Origin: Bacteroidota bacterium
GTDB lineage: Bacteria; Bacteroidota; Bacteroidia; NS11-12g; UBA955
Length of the DNA stretch: 32,211 bases
Assembly (NCBI GenBank): GCA_947451105.1
Contig: CANFXY010000019.1
Location: 1-32,211, forward strand
Direction: 5' to 3'
Shown: positions 5,536 to 11,719 of the stretch, piece by piece
How positions within the stretch are numbered: the stretch's first letter is position 1
Layout: each line of letters starts with the position of its first letter
Notes under the pieces: model-generated
What the model saw: the letters and a program-made list of their open reading frames with translations, nothing else
Told to the model about the DNA's origin: nothing
Database searches by the model: none
Position numbers and translations under genes: made by a program

Positions 5536-7584
5536 TTAAACATTATTTTCTTGCTGTCCCACATAAAAACCGTGCATGAAAAATATATGGGGTAGGCTGA
5601 TGCAAGAGAGGAAAATAAAAAAGTAGCTCAATATGTTTGTTGATAGCAGTTTATCTATAGAATTGAAAGCCAAGATGGCTATAAAAACAGCTATTGCTCC
5701 AAGTAAATAAGGCCATGCTTTTTTGTACAATTGTATTGAATTTAATGAGAGACCATTTTTTAAATCTTGCCACGCATTAAAGCTGTGTTGGCAAATGAAG
5801 TAAAGAGAAAATGCCGCTATTAAGGGCATAAACAAACCTAAAAATAAAATAAGGGATAATTGTAAAAAGTGTTTTTTGTTTTGAATAAGACAAATATAAA
5901 GTCCAGCAAAAGCTGAGCCTATTAGGAAAGTGAATATGGCAGAACTTATATTGATTTCAAATAGTTTTTGGGGCAATAAATTCTGGATGTTTTTTAAAAC
6001 TGAAATGGATTCTTGCCAATGACCGAATACAATAATAAATAGAATAAGTGCACCGATTAATCCACCCTTTATTGCTTTTTTGAGCGCATGCGCTTGGTTT
6101 AGTTTTTCGAGTTCCGATTCGCCAAAATGAAAGGCAGAATAAATTAGAAATAAAATTAAAGCAATTTTAGGCGCATAAATCCACAGGGTAAAATTCAGGG
6201 CAATAATTAAAAGATATTTTGCAATGAATTGAACCAACGGTTTTGAATCTTTTTTGAGTAAATGGTCAACAGCCCCATGCGGAATGCCGATAAGTAAAAG
6301 TCCGAATACAATTAATGAATACATGTAGGTTTCAGTGTGTGGACTTGCTATGGTTGATAAAAGAAAATAAATGCACAGAGTTAATGCTGTTGCCAAACTT
6401 CTAAAACTTGTATTTTTGAAGATATGCAAGCAGGCAGCTTTTATAAAAGGTGTGAAGGGGAGTGATGCAAATATTTTTATTTCTTGAAACAAAGTCGTTT
6501 TTTCATCTAGGAAGCAAAATATTGTTGAAATTTTTTGTGCTGAAAACAACTTGCTGAAAATTTCTTTTCCCAAATAAGGCCATCTCAATAAGATGATAAG
6601 AAGCAGAGAATCGTAAAATTTAAATCGGCTTTTTGATCTTAACGAAATATGTTTAAATTCATTTTTAGAAATCTTCTTTGCCACTTCCTCAGCGAACAAG
6701 AACATGTTTTTGAACCCATATCCTGTGCTGGGTTTAATTAGGTTTGCGCGCGCACCAGTATGGATTAAACCCTTCATCTTGCTATCGGGGAATTGGTAAT
6801 TGGTCATTGGAATGCAACCAATTTCCTCTGCAAGCAACTCATAATGTCCAAAAAGTGTTGCTATTTTTTGAGATAAAACATCTTTGGCATAGTCTAGGTC
6901 AATTTTTTCAGCACCAAATCGAGTCAGTTCAATTAATGCTTCATTTTTGTAAAAGGGCAGAACATAAAAGAATTGTGTGAATTGGTTTTGTTCAACATCA
7001 AAATTCATCATTTCAAAGGTGTTGATGTCGAACACTTCTTTTTTGAATTTTACCTGTATACCGTAGAAGCTTTGGTGCAGATGGATATGCTTGCTGCTGT
7101 CTATTTTTGGTGGACGGCTATCGAAAATAAATTTTGCTTGTAAAATGCCTATATCGGTATGGACTATGCTAAATGCTGGGTTTTCTGTGATGTCAAAACA
7201 TTTGGCCTCGAATCTTGCAATCTTGTTTTGCTTTATAAGACTTGCTGTGTAAAGGTAGAGGTCAATGCTTTTGACGTAGTAATATGGTTGGCTGCTAATG
7301 TCTTGGGGCAGCCCTTTGTTTATTTCAATTTTGTTGTAAGAATGTTTGATAATGCAGGACAGTTCCTTTACAATCCTGTCGTTTGGAGAGGCCCAAAAGC
7401 AATAGGTTTTATCGTTTTCGTTTTTTTGTTGGGCTTCAATAACCGCAACGTTTTTGTTATTGAATGCATTCGATTCAATTAGTTTTTTAAGGATTAAGCT
7501 GTTGCTTGCACCCATGCCAATAAACACATAGTCGTAGACCAATTCCTGATTTGATTTTTCGGGATGTAGATTGTTTTGATCCAT
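5536..7584 (-). CDS. crtY-blh: Fused lycopene beta-cyclase / beta-carotene 15,15'-dioxygenase (CrtY-Blh)
   Basis: This 682-residue protein combines two enzymes. Residues about 15-390 are a full-length CrtY-type lycopene cyclase: dinucleotide-binding FIGMGASNSL (21-30), KTYCFWAS (59-66), FDSRPP (154-159), PSTGYGF (285-291) and the usual CrtY tail (FYDSLLLIILLRWP, then ASLPFTPF). Residues about 395-682 are a multi-helix Brp/Blh membrane enzyme with its iron-ligand histidines: IPHGAVDH (H436, H441), FHFGE (H486), CQHS (H600), LPHIFFMH (H666, H671). One chain would thus cyclise lycopene to beta-carotene and cleave it to two retinals, the rhodopsin chromophore. It lies 85 bases downstream of the rhodopsin gene with a terminator between and no clear promoter of its own. 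No stop or frame break lies in the junction. Confidence 0.93.
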   Translation of the reverse strand: MDQNNLHPEKSNQELVYDYVFIGMGASNSLILKKLIESNAFNNKNVAVIEAQQKNENDKTYCFWASPNDRIVKELSCIIKHSYNKIEINKGLPQDISSQPYYYVKSIDLYLYTASLIKQNKIARFEAKCFDITENPAFSIVHTDIGILQAKFIFDSRPPKIDSSKHIHLHQSFYGIQVKFKKEVFDINTFEMMNFDVEQNQFTQFFYVLPFYKNEALIELTRFGAEKIDLDYAKDVLSQKIATLFGHYELLAEEIGCIPMTNYQFPDSKMKGLIHTGARANLIKPSTGYGFKNMFLFAEEVAKKISKNEFKHISLRSKSRFKFYDSLLLIILLRWPYLGKEIFSKLFSAQKISTIFCFLDEKTTLFQEIKIFASLPFTPFIKAACLHIFKNTSFRSLATALTLCIYFLLSTIASPHTETYMYSLIVFGLLLIGIPHGAVDHLLKKDSKPLVQFIAKYLLIIALNFTLWIYAPKIALILFLIYSAFHFGESELEKLNQAHALKKAIKGGLIGALILFIIVFGHWQESISVLKNIQNLLPQKLFEINISSAIFTFLIGSAFAGLYICLIQNKKHFLQLSLILFLGLFMPLIAAFSLYFICQHSFNAWQDLKNGLSLNSIQLYKKAWPYLLGAIAVFIAILAFNSIDKLLSTNILSYFFIFLSCISLPHIFFMHGFYVGQQENNV

Positions 7585-7607: not shown

Positions 7608-7647
7608 AAAAAAGAAGGCTATCAAGTATAAACGAGATAGCCTTCTT
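7608..7647 (-). terminator. Strong terminator after the rhodopsin gene
   Basis: Perfect 12-bp arms AAGAAGGCTATC (7612-7623) and GATAGCCTTCTT (7636-7647) have a 12-base loop. On the - strand the hairpin is followed by a run of T. It sits between rhodopsin and crtY-blh, so crtY-blh would be made by partial read-through, giving much more opsin than enzyme mRNA. Confidence 0.88.
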
Positions 7648-7669: not shown

Positions 7670-8389
7670 TTAGTCTTCAGAAGAACGACTTAATGAATAG
7701 ATAACTAAACCAAAACCGATTTTGTTGATTGCGTCTGCAATGTTGTAAACGATATCCATTGAGTGAGCAGCTGCAGCTGGATCAGCAACCAATTGCATGC
7801 CAAACAATCCGCCTGGAGTTCCTAAGATGTAACCTAGAGGGTAGATAGCCCAACCAACTAAAACGAACCAAGCCAATACTCTTGTTGCTTTTGCAACTTG
7901 CGGACCAGCTGTTTGAGCCAATTTAGCTACGTCGCCCATCCAAACCAAGTAAACGATGTAGAAATAAGCAGCACCTGAGATAACACCCCAAAGTACACTG
8001 TTAGTTCTGTCGATGGTTTCACCGAAGTAACCTGTTACCAACATCACCAAAGATGCTAGAATAAGTTTCCATAACAAACCAATTTTTGCACCAGCTTTTT
8101 TAGTGATTAAGTAAAACTCAACACACATCAAAGGCACAGTAAGAATCCAATCTACATAACGGAAAAATGTTGGTGAATCACCAGTTTCTAAATTGTAGCC
8201 TCTCATGTAGTAGTAGTGAACTGCTGCAATAAAGGTGATTAAACCAGAAACCAAAACTGAGGTTCTCCATTTCGCTGAAGTGTTGTTTAGTTCAAAGAAA
8301 AAGAAAACAGAGGCGGCCATCATAGCCATTGTTCCGATAAAAAACGTAAATGCTACGTAGTTATCGCTTGCGATTTTTAAATGTTCCAT
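7670..8389 (-). CDS. Light-driven proton-pump rhodopsin (proteorhodopsin/xanthorhodopsin type), green-tuned, with fenestration glycine
   Basis: This 239-residue seven-helix protein carries all key residues of a proton pump (green proteorhodopsin numbers in brackets). H58 (75) lies in AAVHYYYMR. RYVDWILTVPLMCVEF gives acceptor D80 (97), T84 (101) and donor E91 (108), the DTE motif. M88 (105) predicts green absorption. D219 (227) and the retinal-binding lysine K223 (231) lie in NIADAINK. In helix E, VLWGVISGAAYFYIVY aligned without gaps to bacteriorhodopsin puts G135 at the place of Trp138 (Phe152 in green proteorhodopsin). Glycine at this position lets xanthorhodopsin hold a carotenoid antenna. 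The motif excludes sodium (NDQ) and chloride (NTQ) pumps. Retinal would come from the adjacent CrtY-Blh. Confidence 0.96.
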   Translation of the reverse strand: MEHLKIASDNYVAFTFFIGTMAMMAASVFFFFELNNTSAKWRTSVLVSGLITFIAAVHYYYMRGYNLETGDSPTFFRYVDWILTVPLMCVEFYLITKKAGAKIGLLWKLILASLVMLVTGYFGETIDRTNSVLWGVISGAAYFYIVYLVWMGDVAKLAQTAGPQVAKATRVLAWFVLVGWAIYPLGYILGTPGGLFGMQLVADPAAAAHSMDIVYNIADAINKIGFGLVIYSLSRSSED

Positions 8390-8673
8390 CTTATATAATT
8401 AATATTTTTTTCCTACTCGTAAGGCTTTTCGGATTTCGCCCATTTTTGAGTGTTTTTTCACTTTTCGATTCAATTATAACAAAAACTTTTTGTTTTTGTT
8501 TTTTAATAAGATTAAAAAAATGCAAGTGTTTGAAAATTAATCAAATAATTTATTTTAAATCCGATTATTTTGTTCCTTTATCGAATTTTATTCCATTAAA
8601 TATACCTATGTAAATGGGGTTTTTGTTTATGATATAATAAACAAGAAGGGAGGCGCGAGAAATTGATTTATTG

Positions 8674-8716
8674 TCTCATTAACATTGGGATGGAAAACAC
8701 CCCAATGTTAATGAGA
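8674..8716. repeat. Long perfect hairpin (16-bp stem)
   Basis: TCTCATTAACATTGGG (8674-8689) and CCCAATGTTAATGAGA (8701-8716) are exact inverted repeats with an 11-base loop. No T-run follows on the - strand, so it is not a standard terminator for the kinase operon. It may be an RNA 3'-end structure or part of a small palindromic element. Confidence 0.75.
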
Positions 8717-8730
8717 GTGAGAGTGAGAGT
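8713..8730. repeat. Tandem hexamer repeat (GAGAGT)3
   Basis: Three exact tandem copies of GAGAGT begin in the distal arm of the 16-bp hairpin and continue beyond it. It could be a slippage-prone tract. Confidence 0.7.
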
Positions 8731-8800
8731 GAATGCGACATATTAAATTATTGAAATCATATCGTATTTCCTACCGCCCCGCTCTTGCCCTCTTGTTTCA

Positions 8801-8843
8801 CCCTATGGTGTGTTTTCTGCTTTGAGAAAACTCTACCATAGGG
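8801..8843. repeat. Two-part hairpin downstream of the kinase gene
   Basis: Outer arms CCCTATGGT (8801-8809) and ACCATAGGG (8835-8843) and inner arms GTTTTCT (8812-8818) and AGAAAAC (8825-8831) form one long stem with a small asymmetric internal loop and a 6-base apical loop. It probably forms in the 3' untranslated RNA of the FIST-kinase operon (- strand). Confidence 0.65.
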
Positions 8844-8851
8844 CTCTTGCT

Positions 8852-8868
8852 GAAGCCCCATGGGCTTC
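8852..8868. repeat. Short hairpin next to the kinase stop codon
   Basis: GAAGCCC (8852-8858) and GGGCTTC (8862-8868) pair perfectly around a 3-base loop, two bases beyond the kinase stop codon. Without a T-run it is only a possible RNA-stabilising structure. Confidence 0.5.
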
Positions 8869-8870
8869 CT

Positions 8871-10586
8871 CTATTGATCTACAAACTCAACAAAGAAAGT
8901 ACTGCCAACATTTGGTGTGCTTTCAAGCCAAATGCGGCCGTTCATAGATTCGACTTGGGTTCTGGTCATATACAAACCATAACCTTTTGCGGAAGGATGT
9001 TTGTGGAATATTTTACCAATTTTGAAGACACTGTTTTGGTGTCTGCTTAGGTCTATTCCCAATCCATTGTCTTTAACACTCAATAAAATATTGTTTCCGA
9101 AACGTTCGGTTTTTATTTCAATGCGTGGATGTCTATCTTCAGCCCTGTATTTAAGGGCATTGCTGATTAGGTTGTGGAGTATGCTTTTTAAGTATTTGGA
9201 TGGGAAGCGCAGGTTAGGTGCTTGTGAGCAATCGATAGAGATTTCTGCCTTCGATTTTTCGATCTCAATGTCTAAGCTTTTGGTAATTAATTTAATTGCC
9301 TTGTTAAAATCATTGTTCTCGAGCTTGACTGAATTGTCTTGCTTTACTTGCAGCGATTCTACCAGTTCGTTGAATATTTCATTTAAACTATTAATCACAG
9401 GCTCAACCTTGTTAATCATCTCTTTTTTCTCTGCTTCATCGGTGGCATCTTGTATGAATTTAATTAGCATAGAAATATTAACCAAAGGTCCTCTTAAATT
9501 GTGTGAAACAATGTTGCAAAAATCGTTAAGCTGCTCGTTTTGGTGAGAAAGCTGTTTGGCTAATAGCTCTTGCTTTTCTTCCATTTCAGTACGCTCGGTG
9601 ATGTCTATTCCATAGCCAATAACAATCGAAACATTGTTGTCCATGTCAAGAATTGGAACTAAGTGTTTGAGTATGGATTTTTTACTTCCATCCTTGTCAA
9701 TTCTGGTTTCCTCCCATTTGATTTCTTTTTTCTGGGTAATGGCATCGTAGAATTTGTTTTGTGTATGAATGGCAATGGTGATATCTACCCCTGTTAAATC
9801 GATGCAATCAAAATAGTTTTTACCAATAAGCTGTTCACGTATTTTAGGGTCAGCAACTGTCGATGGGTTGATGAATAGATAATTTTGTTTGCGGTCGAAA
9901 ACCAAGACGTTGGGAGGTAGAGAATTTAAAATGGTTTCGTAAAACAATTTTAGCTCGTTTGTTTTTTCTTCTGCAAGGACAATTGTGCTAATGTCTTGGA
10001 AAATCCCAATAAGCAAACTTCCCTCTTTGTGGTTTTCGATTATACGGCCTTCAATATGAAAATAGTTTGGAGAATTAAGTAGCTTTGCTTTTTCAATTTT
10101 GAATCCTCCTTTTTGTTTGACTGCTTTGAAAATAATTTTGGTGATTTCTTCTCCTGCCTCAAAGTTTTTAAGAATCTTTTTAATGCCTTTGGAGAAGTCG
10201 ATTTTATGCTCGTCAAACATGCTAACAAGCTGGTCGGATAGTTCTAATTGACGCAAATTTACATCCCAAGTAAAGTTCCCCAATTTTGCAATTTTTTCAG
10301 CGTTTTTAAGGTTGTAACTGGCTTTGGTTAAATGGGCAGTTTTCTTGTCGATGGTGGTGCTGAGGTTGCTGTTTAATTTGTTAAGTTCTTTGTTTTTTTT
10401 GAAAAGTTCATGTGAACTTTGAGACAGGATATTTTCAATATGAGCAATGTCTTGGTCGTAGTTTTGATACGCCGAATTAACAATTTCAAGAAAAGCATCA
10501 AGGTCGGCTTTGGTATATTCTTCCAATGAGCCAAGATGGTCTTTTATTTGCCTCTTTAAGAGCCTATGAAAATTGCTTTTTATCAT
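8871..10586 (-). CDS. Soluble PAS-domain sensor histidine kinase
   Basis: This 571-residue kinase has no membrane segment. Residues about 45-90 look like a coiled coil. Two PAS-like regions follow at about 95-200 (LGNFTWDVN, ending GIFQDIS) and 210-333 (ending GYGIDITERTEM). The dimerisation domain holds phospho-acceptor H362 in IVSHNLRGPL. The ATPase domain shows the N box HNLISNALKY (471-480), the G1 box DNGLGID (506-512) and the G2 box KGYGLYM (534-540). The start overlaps the FIST gene stop by 4 bases (ATGA), so the two are translationally coupled. The FIST protein is therefore the likely sensory partner. No response regulator is encoded nearby. Any role in regulating the rhodopsin downstream is conjecture. 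Confidence 0.93.
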   Translation of the reverse strand: MIKSNFHRLLKRQIKDHLGSLEEYTKADLDAFLEIVNSAYQNYDQDIAHIENILSQSSHELFKKNKELNKLNSNLSTTIDKKTAHLTKASYNLKNAEKIAKLGNFTWDVNLRQLELSDQLVSMFDEHKIDFSKGIKKILKNFEAGEEITKIIFKAVKQKGGFKIEKAKLLNSPNYFHIEGRIIENHKEGSLLIGIFQDISTIVLAEEKTNELKLFYETILNSLPPNVLVFDRKQNYLFINPSTVADPKIREQLIGKNYFDCIDLTGVDITIAIHTQNKFYDAITQKKEIKWEETRIDKDGSKKSILKHLVPILDMDNNVSIVIGYGIDITERTEMEEKQELLAKQLSHQNEQLNDFCNIVSHNLRGPLVNISMLIKFIQDATDEAEKKEMINKVEPVINSLNEIFNELVESLQVKQDNSVKLENNDFNKAIKLITKSLDIEIEKSKAEISIDCSQAPNLRFPSKYLKSILHNLISNALKYRAEDRHPRIEIKTERFGNNILLSVKDNGLGIDLSRHQNSVFKIGKIFHKHPSAKGYGLYMTRTQVESMNGRIWLESTPNVGSTFFVEFVDQ

Positions 10587-11719
10587 TTTTCAGAGAAAGA
10601 GGTCAAGGTCATTGTTTGGTTGTGTAATTTACAATCTTGTTCACCCTTTGATTTTAGCAATTCTCCGTATGAATAAAAACCAGCAAACTGGGTGTGTTCT
10701 CCAAATTGATCGGTAACGGCTTCAATCTCGTCTTGGGTTAATTGTTTGAGTACCAATTTGCGCCCCACACAGCTAACCATTAGTACAAGTTCAGGATCGG
10801 ACTTAATGTTTTCTCGGATGATGTTGGCTGCTTTTTCAGCACCATCAATGATGCGGTTCACATTGGCTTTCATCAGGCGAACGGATGCCCCAGTGGGTAT
10901 GTTTCCTGCAAAGGTCATGCTTTTGTCAGCTTCATTAATGCCTAAAATGGTTCTCACTAGAACTTCTGAATCTTCCGCTTCACGCATTTCTAGTGGAAAG
11001 AATAGGGCAGAGCCAGGCAAGTCTTTTGAAAGTTCACCAAGGTATGATTTGTATAAATCAAGGGCCGGTTGATTGTCTATTTCGTATACCACATTGTCTT
11101 TGCTTTTGGTAACAAAGCGGTCCATTCCAAAGCTGTCCCATCCACCAAAGGATGCCGTACTTGTTTGGATGTCGCCGTAGAATCCAACAGCTGATATGCA
11201 ATTAGAGACAAAGTTGTTGCTGCGGTCACAAACCAATGTTTCTTGAAAGGCAGCGCCATCGCCAGCCAATCCACCTGAAACATTGACATTGCCGTCTATA
11301 ATTGAATTGATGCCATCCAATAAATGGGTGCCATTCACTGCAATGCCATCAGATAGAATAAAAATATGTTTTAAACTGTCAGCTTTTAATGATTTTGCGA
11401 TGCTTTGACCTGTATTGAAGGAGTTGCCTACCTCGTTGATGTCATAGCTGCATTTCTTAAATCTTGCCTTTTCTAATTTAACTGAACAAATGGAAAAAGA
11501 TAGTTCAGAAAACTTTTTGTTTGAGATTTCACCGGCCGTACTGCATCCCAATATATCGGAATCTGCGAAGCAGGTATTTATTTGGCTTTGGATTTCAGGA
11601 TCTGTCAAAAAAGACTTGTCTGAAAAAACAAAATGCAGATCATATGCTTTGGCATTAAAATGTGATAAATGATCAATAATTTGAGCCTTTTGGTTGAAAA
11701 TGAATTGTGTAACCTTCAT
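10583..11719 (-). CDS. FIST-domain sensory protein
   Basis: This 378-residue cytoplasmic protein has a FIST_N domain at about 25-215 (GCSTAGEI at 58-65, SGGLAGDG at 148-155) and a FIST_C domain at about 220-365 (AGFYSYGEL, then LHNQTMTLT at the end). FIST domains are thought to bind small ligands and are often linked to signalling proteins. Here the gene is first in an operon with a PAS histidine kinase and overlaps it by 4 bases, so it probably passes a ligand signal to that kinase. The ligand is unknown. A well-matched promoter lies upstream at 11751-11782 on the - strand. Confidence 0.9.
   Translation of the reverse strand: MKVTQFIFNQKAQIIDHLSHFNAKAYDLHFVFSDKSFLTDPEIQSQINTCFADSDILGCSTAGEISNKKFSELSFSICSVKLEKARFKKCSYDINEVGNSFNTGQSIAKSLKADSLKHIFILSDGIAVNGTHLLDGINSIIDGNVNVSGGLAGDGAAFQETLVCDRSNNFVSNCISAVGFYGDIQTSTASFGGWDSFGMDRFVTKSKDNVVYEIDNQPALDLYKSYLGELSKDLPGSALFFPLEMREAEDSEVLVRTILGINEADKSMTFAGNIPTGASVRLMKANVNRIIDGAEKAANIIRENIKSDPELVLMVSCVGRKLVLKQLTQDEIEAVTDQFGEHTQFAGFYSYGELLKSKGEQDCKLHNQTMTLTSFSEK

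Follow-up and report, generated by a model that had tools for sequence, protein, structure and literature searches.

The DNA analysed here comprises positions 1 to 32,211 of contig CANFXY010000019.1 from the Bacteroidota genome assembly GCA_947451105.1; this whole stretch of 32,211 nucleotides (nt) is referred to as the window. In the direction of transcription, its minus strand carries a gene for a proteorhodopsin-type rhodopsin (7670..8389), a terminator-like hairpin with a T run (7608..7646), and a fused crtY-blh gene (5536..7584), which encodes a CrtY-type lycopene cyclase and a Blh-type beta-carotene 15,15'-dioxygenase in a single frame. CrtY closes both ends of lycopene to form beta-carotene, and Blh cleaves beta-carotene to two molecules of retinal.

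Domains and conserved residues of the fused protein

The fused gene consists of 682 codons on the minus strand and runs from an ATG to a stop codon without a break; a preliminary description of this DNA had reported the unbroken frame without giving its strand. The product of 682 amino acids (aa) (P0001) matches PF05834 over residues 18-383 (6436..7533, minus strand), with a score of 128.2 bits compared to the Pfam gathering cut-off of 23.4, and PF15461 over residues 428-671 (5572..6303, minus strand), with 119.5 bits compared to a cut-off of 28. These are the only Pfam domains in the protein. The NCBIfam model for Brp/Blh (TIGR03753) also scored above its cut-off (130.9 vs 95.25), while the model for the lycopene cyclase family (TIGR01790) remained under its curated cut-off (79 vs 209.5 bits). 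The junction, residues 384-427 (6304..6435, minus strand), is formed by the end of CrtY and the first predicted helix of Blh, and contains no inserted linker.

An alignment of 48 distinct fused proteins was constructed, from which the edge-cut sequences L008, L077 and L175 and duplicate fetches were excluded. It contains 63 invariant positions, distributed over both domains, among the rows covering each position. The first Met is not included, since the first residue of every row was set to M by script and its invariance is no finding; row L026 is without the first ~100 residues, and row L076 without its C-terminal end. The invariant residues of the CrtY domain include G23 and G25, which we take to be dinucleotide-binding glycines, E219 and T221, presumably the acidic cyclase motif, and W64, G277, K284, T287 and G288. 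Those of the Blh domain include H436, D440, H486, H522, H600 and H666. In a wider set of fused and other Blh proteins, H436 and H486 are present in 86 of 86 rows, and H600 and H666 in 85 of 86, the remaining row being cut by a contig end; we take these four histidines to be iron ligands. The presence of both CrtY and Blh in one chain, as proposed in the preliminary description, is thus borne out by Pfam scores far over the cut-offs and by conserved residues in both domains.

One of the aligned fusions, L026 (G031), has an open frame without an ATG, GTG or TTG before about residue 101. Either this gene starts at another codon, or its N-terminal part was damaged in assembly.

A sequence search of the PDB revealed no match to P0001 at expectation values (E) up to 1. 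The AlphaFold model of the fusion, built from a seven-sequence alignment (pLDDT 63.7, pTM 0.43), is too poor to give the domain arrangement. Its Blh part is mostly helical, with low confidence in this region. A Foldseek search with this poor model returned FAD enzymes, including geranylgeranyl reductases, and supports only an FAD-enzyme fold.

Spread and origin of the fusion

Among 108 genomes examined from the window's order, 41 contain both domains in one frame, one of which (G056) is cut by its contig at residue 576. At E up to 1e-60, 43 of the 108 genomes gave a match, namely these 41, one genome with a split gene (G016) and one with a match at a contig edge (G032). Among 97 relatives, 38 genomes carry the fusion (G056, cut at residue 576, included), and in a 39th, G032, the sequence runs off the contig inside the gene. 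Beyond the order, a sample of 395 genomes of the phylum contained at least four more fused genomes (G137, G300, G316, G414), and two more (G520, G528) were present among 119 genomes of the order to which G300 belongs. Other phyla were covered only through a scan for close relatives and a plasmid search. A pattern scan of viral contigs for close relatives revealed no relative of the fusion; 18 plasmid records matched, none of them at 80% query coverage, and none contained a fused relative.

Comparison with the nearest relative, the 72%-identical fusion L002, gave a nonsynonymous divergence (dN) of 0.18 for CrtY, 0.33 for the junction and 0.21 for Blh, and a synonymous divergence (dS) of ~1.5 for CrtY and ~2.2 for Blh, with saturation at the junction. 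The low dN against dS indicates purifying selection in both domains. Together with the occurrence of the join in 41 of 108 genomes, this excludes a chance event or a joining error, the possibility for which the preliminary description had suggested mapping of reads; the matter was settled here without reads. Nothing was found in favor of an assembly or sequencing error, and we assign it practically no probability. The search for other single chains with both families, suggested in the same description, showed that the protein is not a lone oddity: the fusion is a real, conserved and widespread form.

The structure of the junction bears on how the fusion arose. In the 48 fused rows, P376 of CrtY and H436 of Blh are spaced 57-62 aa apart. 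In 30 separate crtY-blh pairs, the CrtY tail and the Blh head together amount to 57-70 aa in 26 cases, and to 72, 80, 81 and 111 aa in the rest. The two proteins are thus joined end to end. The separate genes overlap or abut: for 29 of the 30 pairs, the intergenic gap ranges from -58 to 10 nt (as the most-upstream starts were used, overlaps may be overstated). A small change at the abutting stop and start codons could have made the fusion.

In a tree of 104 CrtY rows, the 48 fused rows and one split pair form a single clade with a Shimodaira–Hasegawa-like likelihood-ratio (SH-aLRT) support of 99, and the sister group consists of separate neighboring pairs from genus g6 (same family), G242 and G519. 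In a tree of 86 Blh rows, the fused rows lie in one supported group, whose other members are the split pair, a Blh from a contig edge and a pair on a long branch. A single clade of the fused, split and contig-edge rows was not rejected by the approximately unbiased test (p-AU 0.58). Both trees are of the quick kind; the second fetches L049, L065, L171, L172, L176 and L177 were excluded, and G584-G586, which are counted among the fused genomes, are absent from the alignment. The trees fit a single origin of the fusion from neighboring crtY and blh genes. In G016, which belongs to the window's own genus, crtY and blh are separate and overlap by four bases (ATGA) at the joint. As this pair is nested inside the fused clade, it represents either a later split or an assembly indel.

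The overlap at the joint in G016 and the overlapping or abutting genes of the separate pairs would also fit an explanation in which cleavage or internal initiation yields two halves that work independently, and in which the fused state is a neutral by-product of gene overlap. Conservation of the protein is lowest at the junction, where dN against L002 exceeds that of either domain, as such an explanation would allow. We nevertheless regard it as very improbable, because the fused state has been kept in 48 distinct proteins with identities down to ~35%, with only one split inside the clade.

Five fused proteins from family f25, which belongs to another class, occupy two places in both trees. 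Constraining them to a single group was rejected in the CrtY tree (p-AU 0.007); in the Blh tree this constraint was not rejected (p-AU 0.076). Their two positions point to transfer of the fused gene between classes of Bacteroidota, perhaps twice. A separate observation concerns G004 (L070), from the window's genus, in which the rhodopsin is 93% identical to that of the window and the fusion only 35%. The fusion of G004 groups with fusions from family f2 and from other genera, which looks like an exchange of the enzyme gene.

Rhodopsin, second cyclase and a proposed retinal line

A rhodopsin neighbor had been claimed in the preliminary description, and the rhodopsin gene (7670..8389, minus strand) is the next gene upstream of the fusion, on the same strand and 85 nt away. 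The 239 aa product contains D80-T84-E91 and K223, which from knowledge of the family we take to indicate a proton pump, and its closest solved relatives by sequence are proteorhodopsins. In 39 fused genomes (including one cut at a contig edge), a rhodopsin gene is located directly upstream on the same strand in 20, is a divergent neighbor in 6, lies on another contig in 10, and was not found in 3. Among the 97 relatives, a rhodopsin is present in 53 of 56 genomes with Blh, compared to 5 of 41 without. This co-occurrence, and the neighborhood in the fused genomes, tie the fusion to rhodopsin. Five genomes (G030, G038, G057, G068, G083) contain a rhodopsin and no Blh match; they may take up retinal from elsewhere, rely on a different cleavage enzyme, or have incomplete sequences.

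Comparison of the loci L002-L007, L012-L019, L070, L076 and L113 showed that the rhodopsin is 89-94% identical to that of the window in many fused loci, in which the fusions are only ~35-72% identical, and 57-76% identical in others, such as those of genus g8 and family f2. Five rhodopsins tested gave dN of 0.04-0.08 with dS of 0.5 to 3.8, which indicates very strong constraint.

By ungapped offset, Gly135 of the window rhodopsin aligns with a Phe of green proteorhodopsin. The match is unsure, since the phmmer alignment has a small insert near Gly135, and its correspondence to the antenna-fenestration position is inferred. According to the available part of PMC13093654, the fenestration for the carotenoid in xanthorhodopsins is formed by a Gly at that place; one of them, Kin4B8, binds hydroxylated xanthophylls. 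If the match holds, the xanthophyll of the cell could be the antenna and the fusion could make the retinal, which would be a further reason to separate the two branches.

Upstream of the rhodopsin, 8390-8870 contains no recognized gene and carries a near-perfect inverted repeat around a TTAACATTGGG core; this is a possible control region. It is followed at 8871-11719, on the same strand as the rhodopsin, by overlapping frames for a PAS-containing histidine kinase and a FIST-domain protein.

The hairpin between the rhodopsin and the fusion (7608..7646, minus strand) has an 11-bp stem (7636-7646 and 7613-7623), a 12-nt loop and a T run (7608-7612), and thus has the form of an intrinsic terminator, a G+C-containing stem-loop with a T run behind it. 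A stock terminator scan with a loop limit of 8 does not list it, and Rfam at gathering thresholds gave nothing in the window. With a score threshold of at least 18, a hairpin was present in 23 of 24 gaps (40-150 nt) between a rhodopsin and a fused gene, compared to 15 of the 164 remaining same-strand gaps of these loci; the remaining gaps gave 20 of 164 at a threshold of 16, and at 20 the figures were 22 and 14. The 24 gaps include near relatives (e.g., L004, L005, L007, L008) and are not independent. The sole miss is L019, where the start codon chosen by the script falls inside the hairpin region; the split gene L020, counted apart, has no hairpin before it (0 of 1). The 19 stem sequences reported, some of which are shifted versions of one another, show conservation of the structure despite differences in sequence. 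The distance between the stem and the start codon of the fusion is 28 nt here, and 5-85 nt across loci. The hairpin probably ends most rhodopsin mRNA, and it may set the ratio of opsin to enzyme. Since there is often little room for a promoter after the stem, read-through would be the simplest source of a transcript of the fusion.

The genome to which the window belongs also contains genes for a house carotenoid pathway. A crtZ-like gene, crtI and crtB are located together on contig C92; CrtB was identified by PF00494, and CrtI scored above the cut-off of NF058655, a model for bifunctional phytoene/3,4-desaturases. For the CrtZ-like protein (P0002), neither Pfam nor NCBIfam gave a match at E up to 0.001; we take it to be CrtZ from knowledge of the family, from its length and histidine-rich sequence, and from the position of its gene next to crtI and crtB. 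A CruF-like protein is encoded on C45, and the query used for it (L147:5246-5902) matches two CruF models below their cut-offs. A second cyclase, of the CrtYcd type and unrelated to CrtY, is encoded on contig C82 (L156:3229-3978) and contains two PF18916 stretches. In the accessible parts of the respective papers, CrtYcd of Algoriphagus is described as a monocyclase (PMC2889829) and belongs to a predicted set of eight flexixanthin genes (PMC10784355). Of the eight genes given there, the five searched for (all but crtE, crtD and crtW) were found in the genome of the window.

Several further observations were made around the carotenoid genes. At L156:2718-3978, the CrtYcd gene overlaps a gene of ~180 aa, which in this genome encodes an ECF-type sigma factor, and genes of similar size occupy the same place beside CrtYcd in L158, L159 and L160, a hint that the house cyclase may be under stress control. 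Beside crtI of G065, which belongs to family f2 and carries the fusion, lies a relative of the light-sensing repressor CarH (L145:8397-9272, below the model cut-off). Neighbors in flavobacterial and other loci that had been guessed to be carotenoid genes turned out to be thioredoxin-like, TonB-receptor or thiamine-pyrophosphate proteins, or had no match. Absence of CrtZ from the fused genomes was considered and rejected, given the crtZ-like gene beside crtI and crtB in the window's genome and a relative in 37 of 38 fused relatives.

Of the 38 fused genomes among the 97 relatives, 35 contain CrtYcd, as do the contig-edge case (1 of 1), the split case (1 of 1) and 7 of 8 genomes with separate neighboring pairs. 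In all, 44 of 48 genomes with a Blh-linked CrtY contain CrtYcd, compared to none of 6 in which CrtY is not beside Blh (Fisher's test p = 8e-6, which is not to be read as independent evidence, the genomes being related). In the window's order, CrtY thus either takes the place of CrtYcd in the house pathway or is linked to Blh, in which case the genome almost always contains CrtYcd as well. All 7 genomes that have Blh without CrtY contain CrtYcd, as do 28 of the 36 that lack both, and the latter group indicates that the house pathway runs without CrtY.

Because the genome contains a second, unrelated cyclase, the fusion looks like a separate retinal line. We consider it likely that the fusion is a bifunctional lycopene-to-retinal membrane enzyme for the neighboring rhodopsin, in a line apart from the main carotenoid pathway. 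The N-terminal CrtY domain would close both ends of lycopene, and the C-terminal Blh domain would cleave the resulting beta-carotene to two retinals for the rhodopsin encoded upstream. The house pathway, with CrtYcd, CrtB, CrtI, the CrtZ-like hydroxylase and the CruF-like hydratase, would lead to a hydroxylated, probably monocyclic xanthophyll, and the fusion would prevent CruF and CrtZ from drawing on its lycopene and beta-carotene. Most rhodopsin mRNA would end at the hairpin, and read-through would supply the little enzyme that is needed. Both enzyme activities, the insulation and the read-through are what we infer from the sequence. In the available part of PMC11855829, CrtY of Nonlabens alone gave beta-carotene, and mainly 1'-hydroxy-gamma-carotene when CruF competed. 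This shift in product suggests that joining would avoid diversion by CruF, and a cell with CruF and CrtZ that needs retinal would gain if the lycopene taken by CrtY went straight to Blh. A fixed ratio of the two enzymes, also claimed in the preliminary description, follows from the presence of both families in one chain, which makes it 1:1.

Alternatively, the CrtY domain could be a leaky general source of beta-carotene that feeds both Blh and CrtZ, the joining fixing ratio and location without insulation. Three fused f25 genomes (G300, G316, G414) have a CrtZ relative and no match to CrtYcd or a second CrtY, and bacteria with separate genes do without the fusion, in agreement with such a role. 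The idea that the fusion is the sole cyclase and must feed both branches was rejected for the window's genome by the PF18916 CrtYcd, and survives for f25. The presence of CrtYcd in nearly all fused relatives of the window's order (35 of 38), and its retention in 28 of 36 relatives without CrtY and Blh, where the house pathway is independent of CrtY, speak against a leaky source, and we regard it as unlikely.

Several results weigh against a separate retinal line. Linkage is not essential, as G016, in the same genus, has both enzymes as separate overlapping genes with no hairpin before them. Three of the 38 fused relatives (G006, G058, G086) lack CrtYcd, and the association with CrtYcd is phylogenetically dependent, coming from one order, with 4 of the 6 unlinked cases in one genus. 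In the phylum sample, CrtYcd was present, among the matches listed, in 2 of 5 genomes with a fusion, in 2 of 15 with a pair and in 3 of 91 with an unlinked CrtY; these counts are approximate (G401 was counted as a pair though its genes are 590 nt apart). The three fused f25 genomes, from another class, have a CrtZ relative without CrtYcd, so that there the fusion must share its beta-carotene or another cyclase was missed; a scan of the neighbors of crtZ in f25 (L179, L180) recognized no cyclase, but OmpA/VWA and cystathionine-beta-synthase-like proteins and two without a Pfam match. The two-cyclase arrangement is therefore common around the window's order and not general to the fusion. In the 7 Blh-only relatives, CrtYcd is the only cyclase found, which suggests that it can feed Blh and argues against a strictly monocyclic product. 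The hairpin also occurs behind rhodopsin genes when crtY or blh follows as a gene of its own (6 of 6) or when the next gene is a different one (5 of 7), and is thus a property of the rhodopsin gene.

A bolder version of the separate retinal line is possible, though we hold it to be rather unlikely. Beta-carotene would be passed inside the protein, from the cyclase to the cleavage site, and never enter the membrane pool available to CrtZ and CruF, the conserved hairpin would, through read-through, set a fixed ratio of rhodopsin to retinal synthase, and the whole would form an insulated pigment factory that has moved between classes.

Comparison with known systems

Of the two halves of rhodopsin phototrophy, the supply of retinal has received less study, and a cell that also makes xanthophylls must divide lycopene and beta-carotene between two uses. 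A natural fusion of the last two steps, in a genome with a second cyclase, makes substrate channelling between membrane carotenoid enzymes testable; for this purpose, the fusion can be compared with its separated halves and with the split gene pair that occurs naturally in this genus. The fusion could also be a tool for microbial production of retinal or vitamin A.

Our literature search, to which subscription papers were mostly out of reach, revealed no bacterial CrtY-Blh fusion, and the accessible parts of PMC8113403, PMC10219262, PMC13344046, PMC9995536, PMC5877348 and PMC9418006 contain none. Within the literature searched, the CrtY-Blh fusion thus appears to be undescribed in bacteria; fused carotenoid enzymes as such are known.

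The closest parallel is the CrtI-CrtB-CrtYc/d-Blh protein of Thecamonas trahens, which, according to the available part of PMC10016063, likewise has a cyclase and a C-terminal Blh in one chain and a suggested link to retinal. It differs in being a eukaryotic protein of four enzymes with an unrelated CrtYc/d cyclase, whereas the window encodes a bacterial FAD-type CrtY (PF05834) joined to Blh. CrtIBY of thraustochytrids and the fungal cyclase-synthase fusions, as presented in the accessible parts of PMC10016063 and PMC2889829, are also joined carotenoid enzymes, but they cover earlier steps of the pathway and include no cleavage enzyme. Algoriphagus CrtYcd is a relative of the second cyclase in the window's genome; it differs from the fusion in belonging to another family and, as far as the available text of PMC2889829 and PMC10784355 goes, in being described as a monocyclase and in being part of a xanthophyll set. 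Nearest in the CrtY tree are the separate crtY-blh genes of Bacteroidota (e.g., genus g6, L078-L085; L044), which encode the same enzymes in the same order, overlapping or abutting, but as two proteins instead of one.

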